From NCBI GenBank assembly GCA_945903645.1, contig CAMDOM010000004.1:1-64000 (forward strand): a stretch of 64,000 nucleotides of DNA. The letters are read 5' to 3'. Position numbers and translations under genes: made by a program. Every line of letters begins with the position of its first letter. The first letter of the stretch is position 1. The stretch is from Chryseobacterium gleum. Its GTDB lineage: Bacteria > Bacteroidota > Bacteroidia > UBA10329. Below the pieces are notes generated by a model. It worked only from the letters and a program-made list of their open reading frames with translations. It searched no databases and was not told the DNA's origin. Below are positions 52,305 to 60,247 of this stretch, piece by piece.

Positions 52305-52378
52305 AATCGGCCAAGGTATACATAAGAAAGGTCGACTCAATAAATGAATCGACCCTTCAAATGTGGATAATATAGTGG

Positions 52379-52570
52379 TTAAATACTTTTTCGCTTTTCC
52401 CTAAACCTATTCGCACCATAACCTACCCCAGCGGCAATAAGTATCAGCGAGAATCCATCTAGCGGCACTTCATTCTGCGCTGGAGGTGGTGCAGGCCCCT
52501 GAGCCTGCAACTCTACGCAGATAAAGGTGAATAACACAACTACGGATAGACCTATTTTTATAATTCGCAT
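52379..52570 (-). CDS. Small exported protein with PID-CTERM-like sorting tail (63 aa)
   Basis: The protein has three parts. A signal peptide MRIIKIGLSVVVLFTFICVE ends at LQAQ. A short proline-rich spacer, GPAPPPAQNE, follows. The tail is VPLDGFSLILIAAGVGYGAN followed by a basic end (RFREKRKSI). The tail has the motif-hydrophobic-basic plan of sortase- or exosortase-processed proteins and fits what I know as the PID-CTERM domain of Bacteroidota, with PLDG for the usual P-[IL]-D-G. After cleavage almost nothing but the spacer would remain, so it may be a peptide carrier or a membrane hairpin. It begins 13 nt after the 2324-residue adhesin gene. Confidence 0.75.
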   Translation of the reverse strand: MRIIKIGLSVVVLFTFICVELQAQGPAPPPAQNEVPLDGFSLILIAAGVGYGANRFREKRKSI

Positions 52571-52583
52571 CTCTTCTAAAGTT

Positions 52584-55500
52584 TTACTTTATAACCTTTT
52601 GTACATACGCCTTCTTGGAATCTTGAATTCTTACCGAGTAAACTCCCTTAGCCAAATGCGACACATCAACTTTAAGAAGCTCCGTTCCTAAGATGACGTT
52701 ACTCGATTGCAATACCATCTTACCCGACATATCGAACATTTGTAAAGTTCCAGTAATTCTGCTATTACTGCGCAAATTCAACATATCGTTTGCTATGTAG
52801 GCTTGCATTTCTGGTGCAATAGTGTTGGAAGAAACCCCCGTTACCATTTGCGGTGCGAAGTGAAGGAAGAATCTATCGCTATACAGCATTGGTGAAGATT
52901 GGAATACATAGGAAGACACACGCAAATCATGGAATAGACCATAGTATCTATCTTCCAGTATAATGTCCTCCACATCCATGTTTTCAGTGCTATCCAAAGA
53001 TATAGTCACAACTGTTTGGTAATCGGAGTTAAGGCCCAGTGGCACAATGCGTCCTTGTTCAAATGGACCATATCCCTGAATGGCAAGCGGTTCTCCATCT
53101 ATATAGCTGTACAAACTAAGTTCTCCTAGCGCGTTAAGCTTTGGTGCATCATAGGCCCAATCATTACCATCTGTACCATCCTCAGTAAACCCTACTAACG
53201 TCTGATTGAATCGATTATCTGAACTAATCGCATTCAACCACAATAGTTGTGTTTCTGACTGACGAAAAATGTTTGTGGTGTTTGAAGCCGTTCGCATTGC
53301 ATTGGTAAATTGAATAGTGCCGTTTCCGTTCACATTCACCTTAAAGCCTTGAGCAGTGCCTAATACTCCAGTTGGCGCATTGCCTCCTCCACCAGCTGTT
53401 CCGCTCAGTGCGTTACGCACAGCGTAATCACCCGTTACGTATGTAGTTGTTCCTGGGTTATCCCACAGATACACTGCTCCAACTGCAAGCAATGCACTGT
53501 TGGTGGAAAGGAATGTGCTTACATTAACTCCACTTGGATAGGGGTTTCCTATAAGATTATAAGAAACGTTTGGCGAAGCATTAGAAGTAACTGCAATCCC
53601 AATATCACCATTGTTTACCGTTCCAGTAAAAGTTTTTGTTCCTGCTCCATAAGCTGCGTAACCTTTAGCAGCAACCATAGAACCTCCAGCACCTACCCAA
53701 CCTGGATCAAACTCATCATCTGATGGGTCGGATGTACCAGATGCTGGGTTATATTGATACACAGTTCCTCCAAGAAATCCTGAGCTGACATTGGCAGTAG
53801 GTGAACTCCAATAATCATAGACAGAGCTTCCATTTCGAGTAACATTATAGCTACCCGCACCTGCCAAAGTGCTTCCAGTACCCTGCACCAGACTTCCTCC
53901 ATTGGCAACACTGATTGTTCCGCTATTGGTCAGCACACCTGTCACTGTCATTGAATTGCCCGACTGGATATTCAATGTGGCACCTGTTGCCAATGTCAAC
54001 GTAGCAATCTGGGCAGCCTCGTCAATCGTAGGGAAATTCGCTCCTGCGGGCGATGTTGGTATGTAAGCTGTTCCGCTTGATGTTGGGGCTGTGCCCGTGC
54101 TCCAGTTCCCGTTGGTGGCCCAATCTGTATTCAACGCATTGCCTGTCCATTCATTCACAGTGCAGGTTCGCGAGATAGTGAACGTTCCTGTTGAAGTATT
54201 TGCAGCTCCTCTGTGGGCAATATAGACATAATAGGTTACGCCCACTGCGGTGGTAAAGGTATGGGTCTCAGCAAAAGATCCGAAAACTGCATCTCTACAT
54301 GCTATATTGGTTAATGCACCGCATGAACCACTGGCTATACCCATTTCATGATCGAAAGTAGCGGTGCTAGACAATGTGGTCGAGAATCCGTTGCCCACAA
54401 AAGAGTACCATACCCCTATTTGGCTCATGGTGCAACCTATACTTACTGTCTCGGCAACACTGGCAACTGTAGTTCCAGCCAAACTGGTGGTACCGCAAGG
54501 CAAAGGCGTGGCATTGGCGCAGGCATCGTTCACGGGAGGGGCCGGAGGGCAATCTATTCTCCAATTGATGGTATATCCAGTAGTTAATTCAGGTTTTAGA
54601 AGGAAATAGTAGGTAACTCCAGCTGTCATAGAGAATGGAAGAGTTGTTCCCGTTCCATTCCCTTCATCAATACAATTCCATACACCTACAGCACTGCATG
54701 TACTTGCTTTGTACAAGAAGTTAATATAATTTCCAGTTCCACTTGGGGAAAGAGAATTTACGGTAAGGGTATAGGCCGAACTTGTAACCGTAGGCGTATA
54801 GGTGAATACTGATTCTTTTCCTAGTAAATCATAAAATAATGTAGTGCAATCATAATACCCTGACCAATCTCCAGCTCCTGAAGCAATCACGGTATTGATA
54901 TTGGTGCCACATGACGCGATATTTGTTGGAGCATCACAAGCACTCACAGGAATTTCCACTTCCAATGTGAATGTAGAGGTAGCTGGATAAGCAGTTCCAC
55001 TACCGTTGTAGTCGTAAACGCGCACGAAATATGTTCCTGGGGTTAGACTGTAGGTTGCGAATTCCAAATAACCTTCAATGAACCCATCAATACAGGAAGT
55101 TGTACCCCCAAAGGAGCTGCTCGTGGAACTTACCAAAGATCCTCCGCAACCGTTATACAATTGAAACAAGCCATCAAAATTTGCACTAGGCAATAGATTA
55201 ATTTTATAATCTGCAGTACTACCAACCGTGAAAGAATACCATACATCATAGTCTGAAGTTGAGCCACCGCAACCTCCACTACCAGCTGCAGCACAAGCCA
55301 CGCTACCTGTAATAGCTGCAGCACCAACGGTGATAGCTTGAGCTGTGGCACAGGCATCGTTGGCAGGTGTGCCCACGGTGATGTTGATTCCTGTGGTAGA
55401 GGCGCTTTGAGAGGATGGTGTGCACAGCACCGTGAAACGGTACTGCTTGCCAGCTGTAAGCGCAGGCGTTGTGTAGGATGTCGTTGTAGCACCACTTCCA

Positions 55501-58500
55501 CCCACGGCACTCACCCAAGCACTTCCATTCCACTCTTCCCATTGATAAGAAATACCCGACCCAGTTGTAGCGCCAGTAACAGTAAGAGTAGTTGTACCTC
55601 CGCTGCACACATTGGTAGCAGCGGGTGCTGTTCCAGCAGATGGTGCACCTGAACAGTTAGTTCCTGCTATCACCACTATGGTATACATCTCATATTCGCC
55701 ATAAAGCAATGGATCGCCACAGGCGGTTGGTGCGGGATTCGATTCTTCTACAGCACCAACGCGCATGTAGGTGGTGCCTACCAGTGCACCAACGGGCACA
55801 GTTACACTTGGCGTAAGACTCGTAATCCCGTTTGCCGTATTAGTCGCACTACCAAGGTTATATTCCTCCGAGGGCACATCAAACACAGTGTTCTGGTTCC
55901 AGTCAATCCAAGCTTTTGAATTCACGGTCCAGTTGCCATCGGTGTTGACGCGCGTAGACAGGGTGTAGGCTGAGCCTTGGGCCACGGTAGTGGACACTGC
56001 TGTGAAATCGGTGACAGCAGGATCACCAACGGAGGTGTTGTTGATGGTGTTGAATGTCACATTGGTTATCCCTGTGAAATCACTGTTGGTTATGGAAACC
56101 AAGCAGTAGCCCGTATAGAACGTGCTGCTGCCCGCCCATGTGGAGAAATCAACACCATCGCAATTGCTGCGAACCCAGTAATAGTAGGTGGTGTTGGCGG
56201 TGAGGCCTGTGAGGTTGGCGGTAACAACCCCTGCGGCAGTAGTGCCTGTGGGCGTAGTTCCAGCCGTAGGCGCAGTTGCACTGGTGCTTACATAATAGTG
56301 ATAGCCACTGCCGGGAGCAGGGCTGGCCGCTGTCCAAGATATGGTGGCAGTGGTAGCGGTAACGGCACCCAGTGTTAGAGCAGTGGGGGCGAGGCAAGTT
56401 GGAGGAGCGACAACACTAAATGTGTAATCCTCCGCCTCGCCCGTGGCGATGTTACCGCAGGAAGCAACAGCTAAATTATCGAAGTCTACTCGGATGCGCA
56501 TCCTATAATTGCCGGGCACTGTGCCAGCAGGAACGGTTATGGTCCCTGTAAATGGGCTATAGTTCCAGCCAGCGGTGACCGCAATCTGCTCATTGGCGTC
56601 ATTGAAATCCAAATCATTATTCCAGTTTATCCAAACACTAACACCTGCCCCGTTAAAGGTCTCATTGTGGGTCAGGGTGAAGTTCACTGTGCTTGAAGGT
56701 ACCTGACTTGCAGAGAGCCCTGTGAAATTGCCATAACCCCCTGCTGATTGCCCGCTGGACAGATTGGAGATATTGGTAATGCCTAACGTAGTAGAGAAAT
56801 TGGTGATGCGGGTCAATGTGCTTGTTGAGGAAACCAAGCAGTAGCCCGTATAGAACGTGCTGCTGCCCGCCCATGTGGAGAAATCAACACCATTGCAATT
56901 GCTGCGCACCCAGTAGTAGTATTGGGTGCTGGCAGTGAGGCCCGTGAGGTTGGCTGTAACGACACCAGCCGCAGTAGTACCTGTAGGCGTGGTGCCTGCG
57001 GTGGGCGCAGTGGCGCTCGTGCTTACATAATAGTGATAGCCACTGCCAGGCGCGGGGCTGGCCGCTGTCCAAGAAATAGTAGCAGATGTGGCTGCTATGT
57101 TGGAAGATACCAAGGCGGTGGGAGCAATACAAGATGGGCTTGCCTCCACGACAACATTATCAATTACATTGGCCCTGCCCTCGTTATTCCTACCCTCAAA
57201 TGCAATCTGATAGGTCGCTGAAGGATTAGGTAGCGCCAAAATAACTTCCGTCCAAGTGGAAACATTACCTGTGTAGTTTGCTATCTCAACCCATGAGTCA
57301 GTCGGACTTATACGATAATAGACACGTGTAGTATTCTGATCGGGGCTCCAAAACTCTTGCCCATACCAGAACCTAACTCGCGGATTGGTCAATGAAGTCA
57401 GGTTAAAAATTGGGGATATGAGTTTTGTAATCGGACTGTTCACTCCCACAACAGAAACGAATCGTGCATTAACAGTGCCTCCCTGAGCGGTAGTGATTAT
57501 TCCTGCACCAGCACCTGTTGCGTAGGTCCAGTTGGAAGTACCTGTTACATACCCATTTACCTGCCAACAGCTGCGTGAACTGCTCGCAGCCTCGAACGTC
57601 TCTGTGAAAGGATAGGCACTAATTGAAGCACAGGCCGTAGTGAAGGTGGCCGCTGTTGTCCAACCACTGTTAAGCCCAACCGCGCAGTTCGTGCGCACAT
57701 AGATGCTGTAGGCGGTGGAAGCTGTTAGACCTGTAACGTTGGCCGTAACCGTTGGGCTAGTGGTAGAACCGCTAGCCGCAAGGCCCGTAGCACCGCTTCC
57801 TGCCGCATTGCTGCTGCGCACTTCCCATTGGTAGCCTGTTGGGCTGCCCACTGCTGGGGCTGTCCAAGATATAGTGGCAGTGGTGGCTGCTACAGCAGAC
57901 GAACCTACTCCGGTAGGCACATTGCATGATAGCGTGGTGAAAGTGCTGCTTGACCAACTGCTATAAGTACCGCCACAATTCGTGCGCACATAATAGGTGT
58001 AGGCTGTTGCACTTGCTAAACCTGTAATGTTAGCCGTAACAGCACTTGTGGTTGTGCCGCTGGCCGCAAGGCCTGTAGCACCGCTACCGGCCGCACCGCT
58101 TGTGCGCACTTCATATTCATAGCCAGAAGGCGAACCTGATGGTGCTACCCAGTTGATTGTGGCAGTAGTGTAGTTTAAACTGGAGGATGACAAGGTGCTC
58201 GGCTGCCCACAACTTGCATTAGTGATACTTACGTTGTCAATACCAAGGTTTGTGTTGACATCGTTATAGGCACTGGTAGCCTCAAACCTAACAACCACTG
58301 TTGAAGAAGTGGAAGCCCCAAGAACCACAGCAGTTTGAGATGTCCAGCTTGCTACAGTGGCTGTGTAAGTTGCAACCGCGGCTCCAAACGTTGCCCCACC
58401 ATCTGTAGAAAGGTAAATACGAAGAGATGCCGTGCCTGGATTACGAAAGTCAAAGGTTAAGGCTTTCGTGCCTGCTGGACTAAAATTCACATGGTAATCC

Positions 58501-59558
58501 ATATACCCAGTGCGCGTTTGACAAGCATCGTAGTTATTGAATGTAGCAGCTCCATCAGATGCAGGTGCCGCAATGGTAATGACCCCCGAAACAGTTGCCC
58601 ATCCACTATTGGCTCCTGCGGTCACATTTTGTCTTCTCCATGAACGATCGCCAAACGATGGCCACGTTCTCCAATTAGAAGTATTTGGCAAATCTTGAAC
58701 ACTATTTCCATTTGCCCAAGTAGTGGCGTCAAAATTTGCGGTAGCCGGCAGGGTTACGTAAGTTGGTGCAGATAATGCGGCTGGTGGTGTCCAAGTAAAG
58801 GTTCTGCCACTGTTTGGAACAACAGTTGCTGTGGTGGTGGTGAAGCGAACCGTAGAGGCAGAAACCGCAGTACCTAAGGTGCCCTGAGATGTGACAGAAG
58901 ACCAGTTACTTACAGTAGTGGCCGCTAAAGTCACGTTTTTCCAATCGAAATAGCTAGCTCCTCTTAAACCAACCTGTGGTTGTATTGTAGTGCCGGCAGA
59001 ACCAGTGCAAGCACCATACACTATGCTAACTACATTGGTTGTTTGAGTAAGGCGAATCTGAAAGGTTATTCTATCTGTGGTAACTCCAGAACGAGCCATT
59101 TGCGTAAATTGAACAACAAAATCGCTTCCAGAAGCTCCATATATAATTGTTGGCGCTCCAACTGATGCCAAAAGATTACATCCAAAACCAGAGATTGCCC
59201 CATCGTATCCATTAGTTGCCGTTCCACTGTTAGAAGTTTGAGAAATTGGAGTATAGTTGGCTATGGCAGGTGACTGATCGCCAAAAACGATAAATCCATT
59301 GTTCGAAATACGGATGTTCGTATAGTTCTTATTGTTGTACCGGAAGGTGAACCCAATCGGAATATCACCAGAAATCAAATTTGTACTTACAGTTACGCCA
59401 GATTGCCAAGTGGTCCCTCCAGAAAGGGCGGTGTAGGTGCCTGAACTGTTTGCAAATGTGTAGCTAGCCACCTGCCCCATCACCCCCTGAAGGGCCACGG
59501 TGATCAGAACAAGAACAGTGAGCAGGGCACTACGTGAAACTAGTAGAAAATTCTTCAT
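52584..59558 (-). CDS. Giant FN3/GEVED/PPC surface protein with T9SS domain (2324 aa)
   Basis: The signal peptide is LVSRSALLTVLVLITVALQG. In order follow: an N-terminal domain with YTFANSSGTYTALSGGTTWQ (about 30-260), a jelly-roll (about 285-450), and FN3 domains with TATISWTAP signatures. A second jelly-roll, further FN3 domains, and two GEVED domains come next (VWINWNNDLDFNDANEQIAV; KAWIDWNQNTVFDVPSEEYN). An Ig-like module and several PPC-like domains (YDVWYSFTVGSTADYKINLL) follow. The end is a long beta-rich region and a type A T9SS domain (GTLQMFDMSGKMVLQSSNVI, AKGVYSVRIQDSKKAYVQKV). No enzyme domain is seen. It is probably a surface adhesin or matrix protein. A TAAAATTG box at 59617-59624 on this strand is a possible promoter. 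Confidence 0.9.
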   Translation of the reverse strand: MKNFLLVSRSALLTVLVLITVALQGVMGQVASYTFANSSGTYTALSGGTTWQSGVTVSTNLISGDIPIGFTFRYNNKNYTNIRISNNGFIVFGDQSPAIANYTPISQTSNSGTATNGYDGAISGFGCNLLASVGAPTIIYGASGSDFVVQFTQMARSGVTTDRITFQIRLTQTTNVVSIVYGACTGSAGTTIQPQVGLRGASYFDWKNVTLAATTVSNWSSVTSQGTLGTAVSASTVRFTTTTATVVPNSGRTFTWTPPAALSAPTYVTLPATANFDATTWANGNSVQDLPNTSNWRTWPSFGDRSWRRQNVTAGANSGWATVSGVITIAAPASDGAATFNNYDACQTRTGYMDYHVNFSPAGTKALTFDFRNPGTASLRIYLSTDGGATFGAAVATYTATVASWTSQTAVVLGASTSSTVVVRFEATSAYNDVNTNLGIDNVSITNASCGQPSTLSSSSLNYTTATINWVAPSGSPSGYEYEVRTSGAAGSGATGLAASGTTTSAVTANITGLASATAYTYYVRTNCGGTYSSWSSSTFTTLSCNVPTGVGSSAVAATTATISWTAPAVGSPTGYQWEVRSSNAAGSGATGLAASGSTTSPTVTANVTGLTASTAYSIYVRTNCAVGLNSGWTTAATFTTACASISAYPFTETFEAASSSRSCWQVNGYVTGTSNWTYATGAGAGIITTAQGGTVNARFVSVVGVNSPITKLISPIFNLTSLTNPRVRFWYGQEFWSPDQNTTRVYYRISPTDSWVEIANYTGNVSTWTEVILALPNPSATYQIAFEGRNNEGRANVIDNVVVEASPSCIAPTALVSSNIAATSATISWTAASPAPGSGYHYYVSTSATAPTAGTTPTGTTAAGVVTANLTGLTASTQYYYWVRSNCNGVDFSTWAGSSTFYTGYCLVSSTSTLTRITNFSTTLGITNISNLSSGQSAGGYGNFTGLSASQVPSSTVNFTLTHNETFNGAGVSVWINWNNDLDFNDANEQIAVTAGWNYSPFTGTITVPAGTVPGNYRMRIRVDFDNLAVASCGNIATGEAEDYTFSVVAPPTCLAPTALTLGAVTATTATISWTAASPAPGSGYHYYVSTSATAPTAGTTPTGTTAAGVVTANLTGLTANTTYYYWVRSNCDGVDFSTWAGSSTFYTGYCLVSITNSDFTGITNVTFNTINNTSVGDPAVTDFTAVSTTVAQGSAYTLSTRVNTDGNWTVNSKAWIDWNQNTVFDVPSEEYNLGSATNTANGITSLTPSVTVPVGALVGTTYMRVGAVEESNPAPTACGDPLLYGEYEMYTIVVIAGTNCSGAPSAGTAPAATNVCSGGTTTLTVTGATTGSGISYQWEEWNGSAWVSAVGGSGATTTSYTTPALTAGKQYRFTVLCTPSSQSASTTGINITVGTPANDACATAQAITVGAAAITGSVACAAAGSGGCGGSTSDYDVWYSFTVGSTADYKINLLPSANFDGLFQLYNGCGGSLVSSTSSSFGGTTSCIDGFIEGYLEFATYSLTPGTYFVRVYDYNGSGTAYPATSTFTLEVEIPVSACDAPTNIASCGTNINTVIASGAGDWSGYYDCTTLFYDLLGKESVFTYTPTVTSSAYTLTVNSLSPSGTGNYINFLYKASTCSAVGVWNCIDEGNGTGTTLPFSMTAGVTYYFLLKPELTTGYTINWRIDCPPAPPVNDACANATPLPCGTTSLAGTTVASVAETVSIGCTMSQIGVWYSFVGNGFSTTLSSTATFDHEMGIASGSCGALTNIACRDAVFGSFAETHTFTTAVGVTYYVYIAHRGAANTSTGTFTISRTCTVNEWTGNALNTDWATNGNWSTGTAPTSSGTAYIPTSPAGANFPTIDEAAQIATLTLATGATLNIQSGNSMTVTGVLTNSGTISVANGGSLVQGTGSTLAGAGSYNVTRNGSSVYDYWSSPTANVSSGFLGGTVYQYNPASGTSDPSDDEFDPGWVGAGGSMVAAKGYAAYGAGTKTFTGTVNNGDIGIAVTSNASPNVSYNLIGNPYPSGVNVSTFLSTNSALLAVGAVYLWDNPGTTTYVTGDYAVRNALSGTAGGGGNAPTGVLGTAQGFKVNVNGNGTIQFTNAMRTASNTTNIFRQSETQLLWLNAISSDNRFNQTLVGFTEDGTDGNDWAYDAPKLNALGELSLYSYIDGEPLAIQGYGPFEQGRIVPLGLNSDYQTVVTISLDSTENMDVEDIILEDRYYGLFHDLRVSSYVFQSSPMLYSDRFFLHFAPQMVTGVSSNTIAPEMQAYIANDMLNLRSNSRITGTLQMFDMSGKMVLQSSNVILGTELLKVDVSHLAKGVYSVRIQDSKKAYVQKVIK
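56094..56400 (-). repeat. Near-identical internal repeat in the adhesin gene, unit A
   Basis: This stretch encodes one FN3 domain plus linker ending in AGSSTFYTGYCLV. It is nearly identical at nucleotide level to 56835-57130; for example the first 60 or so bases match. Such identity is much higher than between other FN3 units of the gene. Confidence 0.85.
56835..57130 (-). repeat. Near-identical internal repeat in the adhesin gene, unit B
   Basis: This is the partner of 56094-56400, about 740 bp away. Differences are mostly single third-position changes. It is a likely site for recombination that adds or removes a GEVED-FN3 block while keeping the frame. Confidence 0.85.
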
Positions 59559-59810
59559 TTCAGGAGAGATGAATTGATGTATGCGTAGATGAAAAACGGT
59601 TTTTGGAAATAGGAACCAATTTTAGTAACGTTAATTTAATTTCCAAACATAGAATTAAAAACTATTCGAAGACAACAAAACCTTTCAAAAAGTTGAGTTT
59701 TCGTAAAAATATTTTCCAATTTGTCCAAAAAATTTCACAATACTGCCTAGACCGCCACTGCGTGAATCACGGATGTCATTATTGCATGTGAACGTTAGGT
59801 TACTTATTGA

Positions 59811-59830
59811 CCTGAGTTCGGGTTAAGCGA
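59811..59830. repeat. Outer arm copy, CCTGAGTTCGGGTTAAGCGA
   Basis: It differs at one base from the copy at 59854-59873 and is in the same orientation, 43 bp away. Confidence 0.8.
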
Positions 59831-59850
59831 ACACGACAATCCCTACTCAG

Positions 59851-60103
59851 TAACCTGAGTTCGGGATAAGCGAAAGGCCAAGATTGAACTATCCTATTGA
59901 AAAACATGGTGATAGCCACAGACACACAGAACTTCACTGAAAAAAACACAGAATTTACTGCGTTCCGCAATGAGCTCCCGTTGGTCGGTTCTGTGGCAAT
60001 CAGATGTTTTTCATAAAGAAACAACATCCAACTGGTATGTAACTGTTTGTTTTTTAAATGGAAACTCAAACATGATTTCATAGCTTATCCCGAACTCAGG
60101 TTA
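59851..60103. repeat. Inverted-repeat element with perfect 21-bp arms
   Basis: The left arm 59851-59871 (TAACCTGAGTTCGGGATAAG plus C) is the exact reverse complement of 60083-60103. The 253-bp unit encloses 211 bp of non-coding DNA with the dispersed motif (59967-59990). It has the form of a short non-autonomous transposable element. No transposase frame or clear target duplication is visible. Confidence 0.75.
59967..59990. repeat. Dispersed intergenic motif, copy 3
   Basis: The motif reads GCAATGAGCTCCCGTTGGTC plus GGTT. It differs from copy 1 (28721-28744) at a single position. Confidence 0.65.
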
Positions 60104-60143
60104 TTTGTTTTTCAGAGACAAACTAAAGCATGATTTTATGGAT

Positions 60144-60162
60144 TATCCCGAACTCAGGTTAG
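60144..60162. repeat. Outer arm copy, reverse orientation
   Basis: TTATCCCGAACTCAGGTTA repeats 19 bases of the right arm. The preceding ATGATTTTATGGA resembles ATGATTTCATAGC before the inner copy, so the two right-hand copies form a tandem repeat of about 59 bp. Confidence 0.75.
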
Positions 60163-60247
60163 TGACACTATTTCGATTTTTCACATCACATTTGATAAGA
60201 CATCGCACTGCGGGAATAGATAAATTTAGTCCAGAAAAGCAAACTTG

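Follow-up and report, generated by a model that had tools for sequence, protein, structure and literature searches.

Two genes lay next to each other on the minus strand of the window, which is the whole stretch of 64,000 nucleotides that was analysed. The features of this locus were as follows.

59623..59679 (approximate), minus strand: promoter-like TTTG...TATGTTTG upstream of the adhesin, from a scripted motif scan
52584..59558, minus strand: adhesin-like ORF of 2324 aa with a signal peptide, fn3 and GEVED domains and a T9SS tail
52587..53606, minus strand: C-terminal 340 aa of the adhesin, a RemA/RemZ-like module with a CTD lacking the YPNP motif
52571..52583, minus strand: intergenic gap of 13 nt between the adhesin and the small gene
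52379..52570, minus strand: PID-CTERM protein of 63 aa, from the NF046080 match and an alignment with genus members
52454..52501, minus strand: codons of the 16-residue core QGPAPPPAQNEVPLDG
52326..52358, minus strand: terminator-like 14-pair hairpin 3' of the small gene, from a pattern scan, which alone is no functional proof

The ORFs and the gap agreed with the initial annotation, which had placed a 63-residue gene 13 nt past the adhesin. The promoter-like sequence preceded the adhesin start by about 93 nt, and the spacing of its boxes exceeded the usual length. Since this sequence was found 5' of the adhesin, the hairpin was found 3' of the small gene, and the 13-nt gap was too short to house a promoter, the two genes looked like one transcript, with co-transcription predicted from these elements. 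Repeated occurrences of CCTGAGTTCGGG(A/T)TAAGCGA were noted at 59810-60180 of the window, in the intergenic DNA 5' of the adhesin.

The large protein had been described as a giant T9SS adhesin with FN3 and GEVED domains. The domain assignment held. The protein scored 35.2 bits with the T9SS type A tail model TIGR04183 (cut-off 23), and its Pfam domains were GEVED (two), fn3 (four), the T9SS-associated galactose-binding domain GBD_T9SS_assoc and Por_Secre_tail. The word giant does not hold throughout the group, because the paired partners varied in length between about 570 and 2324 aa. The 3.2-Mb genome of the window had 146 TIGR04183 matches, of which three were paired. This was a very high density, and about eight such genes were located in the window.

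The C-terminal module of the adhesin was homologous to those of RemA (8gl6, E 5e-35) and RemZ (8gl8, E 1e-30) by phmmer. RemA is a gliding adhesin of Flavobacterium johnsoniae and RemZ is its homologue, and the CTDs of both have been solved in the translocon (PMC10994853). As in these two proteins, the adhesin CTD lacked the YPNP motif. The PNP of this motif was absent, and the TIGR04183 match began at profile position 12, whereas most type A tails of the same genome had YPNP at the start of the CTD. RemA differed in that its CTD reached 50.8 bits with NF033708, the T9SS type C model, while the window adhesin gave only 20.5 bits, below the cut-off of 40. In the genus alignment, the module carried the motif series GNPYPS..FTNAMR..YDA.K..VPL..DRFFLHF..VTG. 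AlphaFold prediction of the C-terminus from three sequences gave a mean pLDDT of 45.6, and only about the last 75 residues were mostly above 70.

This subtype was tied to the pairing. All 14 unique paired tails of the genus lacked the PNP of YPNP and carried RFxLxF before the CTD. Among the unpaired tails of the window's genome, about 17/143 did not match the CTD profile in its N-terminal part, and the RFxLHF motif was clear in only one of these, on contig C81. A search of this genome with the C-terminal 340 aa returned four proteins, namely the three paired ones at 440-556 bits and the C81 protein at 108 bits. In the genus, 13/17 close module proteins with readable downstream DNA were followed by a PID gene, and 4/17 had none. 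In the class-wide sample, PNP was absent in 37/52 paired tails. These results showed that the adhesin partners of the genus form a RemA/RemZ-like subtype with a CTD lacking YPNP. Members of a sister clade of the module (L221, L214, L226, L228) were instead followed by another conserved peptide, MNTKKKTYKKPEVKKVTIDNEISMVMMSFGPGGDPEASVIKKLNPLRWWK, which had about 50 residues and no signal peptide and resembled a RiPP precursor.

The small protein, which had been called PID-CTERM-like, proved to be a genuine PID-CTERM protein. It matched NF046080 at residues 35-59 with 33.8 bits, above the curated cut-off of 26. Its order was a signal peptide, QGPAPPPAQNE, VPLDG, a hydrophobic stretch and a basic tail. 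The signal peptide was read by eye as MRIIKIGLSVVVLFTFICVELQA, with the cut before Q. The expectation that only about 10-15 residues would be left after removal of signal and tail was borne out, with 11 residues preceding VPLDG and 16 when VPLDG was included.

Conserved pairing of T9SS proteins with PID-CTERM proteins of fewer than 80 residues had been proposed as a check, and the pairing was found, but it was not universal. The window's genome had three PID genes, namely the window gene, a second above the cut-off on contig C98 and a third on contig C3, G000:C3:97850-98032 (L137, L109). Each was directly 3' of a T9SS-tail gene. Because the C3 copy carried the identical 16-residue core at only 14.3 bits (cut-off 26), the public NF046080 model overlooks true members. 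The order sample consisted of nine genomes, all of the same genus as the window's genome. With a profile built from the genus PID proteins, PID-like genes were found in 9/9 genomes, 19 of them convincing. A same-strand T9SS-tail ORF preceded 17/19 of these genes, including those with the drifted motifs APLDA or IPLDV, and the exceptions were G001:C17 and G005:C2. A close relative of the window's genome was a MAG labelled Flavobacteriales. When named genomes were scanned with the PID alignment, only two loci were found, both in one MAG.

The class sample covered 395 genomes, and the neighbourhoods of 91 PID genes were inspected. PID_CTERM matches were found in 158/395 genomes, nearly always on ORFs of 60-120 aa. 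TIGR04183 matched 52/61 same-strand upstream neighbours of PID genes compared with 4/71 control neighbours, which were other same-strand genes within three genes of the PID gene (Fisher p about 2e-22, with counts uncorrected for relatedness). These pairs were spread over 19 families, and the gap had a median of 34 nt and was mostly below 50 nt. In 18 loci, the order was T9SS gene, PID gene and exosortase. A divergent gene of about 800 codons stood beside several loci, and the one inspected encoded a Wzc-type exopolysaccharide kinase, as expected for exosortase systems. The adhesin-PID pairing is thus real and broader than the single locus showed.

Flavobacteriaceae gave a different picture. 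A PID match was present in 26/60 genomes of this family, but a T9SS gene preceded at most 3 of the approximately 27 PID genes inspected. Most were orphans beside ribE- or pdxA-like genes, as named by eye from the sequence. Universal pairing of PID proteins with T9SS genes was ruled out by these orphans. Since the PID genes of this family are mostly unpaired, the core system is the exosortase and the micropeptide, and its use in pairs with adhesins is widespread but depends on the lineage. The lone Flavobacteriaceae genes (L235, L237, L241, L243, L244, L254, L256 and others) shared a conserved start, IQNKKIxASILFVLISFVCVAQ.

The initial annotation had also asked whether the genome encodes an exosortase-like enzyme. 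A single such gene was detected with TIGR04128 and NF046083 at G000:C13:12306-12788(-), unlinked to the small gene, and no linkage to any PID gene was found. A Pfam PF09721 search of the same genome gave no match, which was misleading, as it misses the C13 gene. The protein scored 45.4 bits with the exo_archaeo signature (cut-off 23), and NFCLG, NIAR and DHH provided the expected catalytic Cys, Arg and His (read in L046/L110). It scored 81.4 bits against XrtX (NF046081), far below 170, and was likewise far below the cut-offs for XrtY (63.1 bits, cut-off 160) and XrtF (40.1 bits, cut-off 90). It is a divergent relative that is assigned to none of the three. In the class sample, an exosortase match was found in 154/158 genomes with PID_CTERM and in 67/237 without it, and an exosortase was located within three genes of the PID gene in 45/91 inspected loci. 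In several genus genomes (L040, L041, L043, L044, L045, L047), the genes beside the exosortase encoded a short protein with a LuxR-type HTH and two secreted proteins that were repeat-like. This neighbourhood was absent in the window's genome. A sequence search for a solved exosortase structure found none.

We compared the parts of the PID proteins within and between genomes. The three PID proteins of the window's genome carried an identical 16-residue core, although 10-11/16 codons differed synonymously in each pair of copies. Their signal peptides were only 9-23% identical, and their TMs were 27-45% identical. G004 had two copies with a different common core, QGPAPPPAPNEVPLDG, and G190 (three copies), G142, G188, G224 and G108 each had their own version common to their copies. 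The cores were near-identical within G007, G133, G240 and G396, and a shared mature peptide was absent in G006, G064 and G267. Codons were counted in pairs from one genome whose signal peptides had diverged and whose mature parts were equally long. In the mature part, 113 codons were identical, 140 synonymous and 8 non-synonymous. The TM had 161, 217 and 249, and the signal peptide had 59, 83 and 584, respectively. In these counts, the equal-length filter favours similar pairs, the pairs are not independent, and the script misplaced a few signal-peptide cuts, e.g. in one G006 copy. In all 36 pairs with diverged signal peptides, mature identity exceeded signal peptide identity (p 8e-8), and it was only marginally above TM identity (p 0.05). 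Mature parts from different genomes had a median identity of 0.38.

Because the core was identical despite synonymous codon differences and diverged signal peptides and TMs, and because other genomes shared other cores, the mature peptide is held by selection, probably through one shared partner. Gene conversion was considered as the source of the identical peptides and rejected, since the codons would then be equal as well, and a common partner exerting selection is the better fit. Gln was located at +1 in 60/89 PID proteins. Two cysteines were present just before the motif in 46/89, often as CWPPPC, and in many XrtX-linked loci such as L015, L019 and L036. These paired cysteines suggest that the mature peptide forms a disulfide or takes part in thiol chemistry.

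Overall, we consider it probable, with some reserve, that the locus is a cassette of a RemA/RemZ-like adhesin and an exosortase-processed micropeptide. The first gene of this two-gene cassette would encode the T9SS adhesin, and the second would encode a substrate of the single detected exosortase of the genome, encoded elsewhere on contig C13. The small protein would enter the inner membrane by Sec and lose its signal peptide, leaving a mature N-terminal Gln. Cleavage by the exosortase, at the VPLDG motif, is strongly predicted. A peptide of approximately 11-16 residues would be freed or joined to a carrier. Because all cassettes of the genome carry the same mature peptide, a single cellular partner probably reads it in every case. 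As its most likely use, it would be a co-made anchor or adapter by which these adhesins, whose CTD is non-standard, are kept at the surface or matrix. This role is a guess, and we give it somewhat less than even weight. Three roles had been suggested for the small protein, namely help in surface display, a membrane plug and a signalling peptide. The divergence of the TM beside an identical peptide speaks against a plug with an active TM. It fits a peptide with a shared partner, either an anchor or adapter or a signal.

The main rival to the anchor or adapter model is the signalling peptide. The mature peptide would then be a secreted pheromone or kin tag, the cassette would report adhesin expression, and one receptor would recognise the genome-specific sequence. 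Unlinked copies do share a genome-specific identical peptide, which is short, Pro-rich and likely to start with pyroglutamate, and LuxR-type HTH genes lay close to the exosortase in several genomes of the genus and, in one case, close to a PID gene. However, no receptor or transporter was identified, and the products of the LuxR-type genes are short and bind DNA, with at most a putative sensor. A tie to one surface-protein subtype would also be unusual for signal genes, and the XrtX-linked PID loci of other genomes adjoin the exopolysaccharide gene Wzc. We therefore regarded a signal as unlikely. The identity of the segment could instead reflect an extended exosortase recognition site, where the freed piece is functionless and the membrane tail matters as a plug or coupling device. 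One exosortase meets all copies of a genome and would also keep the segment identical, and the segment adjoins the presumed cleavage motif. This reading is improbable, because the identity extends to residue 1 of the mature peptide, while the parts usually recognised, namely the TM and the basic tail, diverge within the genome (27-45% for the TM, as given above).

The gene order also matches that of a type B substrate with a downstream PorP/SprF shuttle (PMC12618676), and the CTD of the partners is atypical. The small protein might thus be a dedicated helper of adhesin secretion that stays uncut in the membrane, as SprF is for SprB. In contrast, type A CTDs use PorV, and the RemA CTD was exported efficiently alone in sfGFP fusions (PMC12618676). 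The small protein belongs to an inner-membrane type, its tail is predicted to be cleaved off, and it is no outer-membrane barrel. Moreover, a helper would not need the co-occurrence with an exosortase, which makes such a role quite improbable. Fortuitous neighbourhood, in which mobile or duplicated DNA spread the pair without joint function, is consistent with the finding that, in the genus, PID distances correlated only weakly with those of the adhesin C-termini (Mantel r 0.26, 217/10000 permutations) and with the mostly missing pairing in Flavobacteriaceae. The neighbour counts of 52/61 compared with 4/71, the spread over 19 families, the mostly short gaps and the strict tie, within the genus, to a single CTD subtype render it very improbable.

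PEP-CTERM substrates are mostly normal-sized proteins, whereas the mature part of the PID proteins has only about 10-35 residues, with a sequence shared within many genomes. In other respects, the PEP-CTERM/EpsH system (Haft 2006, 2012, as cited in PMC10936215 and PMC7468200) was similar. It likewise combines a signal peptide, a short motif, a hydrophobic stretch and a basic tail with a membrane Cys/Arg/His enzyme, and the Wzc-type exopolysaccharide gene beside XrtX-type loci of other genomes is a further likeness. Another close system was PID-CTERM/exosortase X (NF046080-NF046083), whose C-terminal signal was found above the cut-off in the small protein. Class-wide, this signal is carried by tiny proteins, and many genomes have XrtX-like exosortases and an XrtX-associated membrane protein adjoining. 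The difference here is that the exosortase is unlinked and falls far short of the cut-offs for XrtX and XrtY, and the PID genes are placed behind T9SS adhesins. SprB-SprF and other pairs of type B CTD and PorP-SprF likewise place a dedicated partner directly 3' of a T9SS adhesin gene (PMC12618676). That partner is an outer-membrane shuttle and the CTD is type B, whereas here the partner is a micropeptide precursor and the CTD is type A-like.

PID-CTERM and XrtX are already known as database models. The accessions NF046080-NF046083 are consecutive and comprise PID_CTERM, XrtX, the XrtX-associated protein and XrtY, which suggests that NCBI curators already treat them as one system. In our literature search, neither PID-CTERM nor an exosortase named XrtX was the subject of any paper. 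The adhesin cassette, the RemA-like partner subtype without YPNP and the genome-specific identical peptide appear to be undescribed in the literature searched.

Bacteroidota exosortases matter for biofilm and surface colonisation, as known for xrtF of F. johnsoniae (PMC10936215). Deletion of xrtF or of its neighbour Fjoh_1449 caused losses of biofilm, zorbs and sand colonisation, which resembled those of porV, porU, porZ or sprA deletions, although the authors did not know the substrates (PMC10936215). Because the family of F. johnsoniae rarely shows the pairing, this support for a link to surface life is indirect. The xrtF phenotype may concern other substrates, since PID genes are mostly unpaired in Flavobacteriaceae. 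A wider reading is conceivable but doubtful, namely that many Bacteroidota exosortases mainly make one genome-specific micropeptide, in step with RemA-like T9SS adhesins, as a surface anchor or recognition tag, and that such peptide-based surface attachment would be distinct from A-LPS conjugation and SprF shuttles. The T9SS-PID pairs name a candidate substrate class for Bacteroidota exosortases. This class is linked to a definable T9SS adhesin subtype, with selection acting on the short mature peptide, and the question of exosortase substrates is reduced to a set of one-gene deletions.
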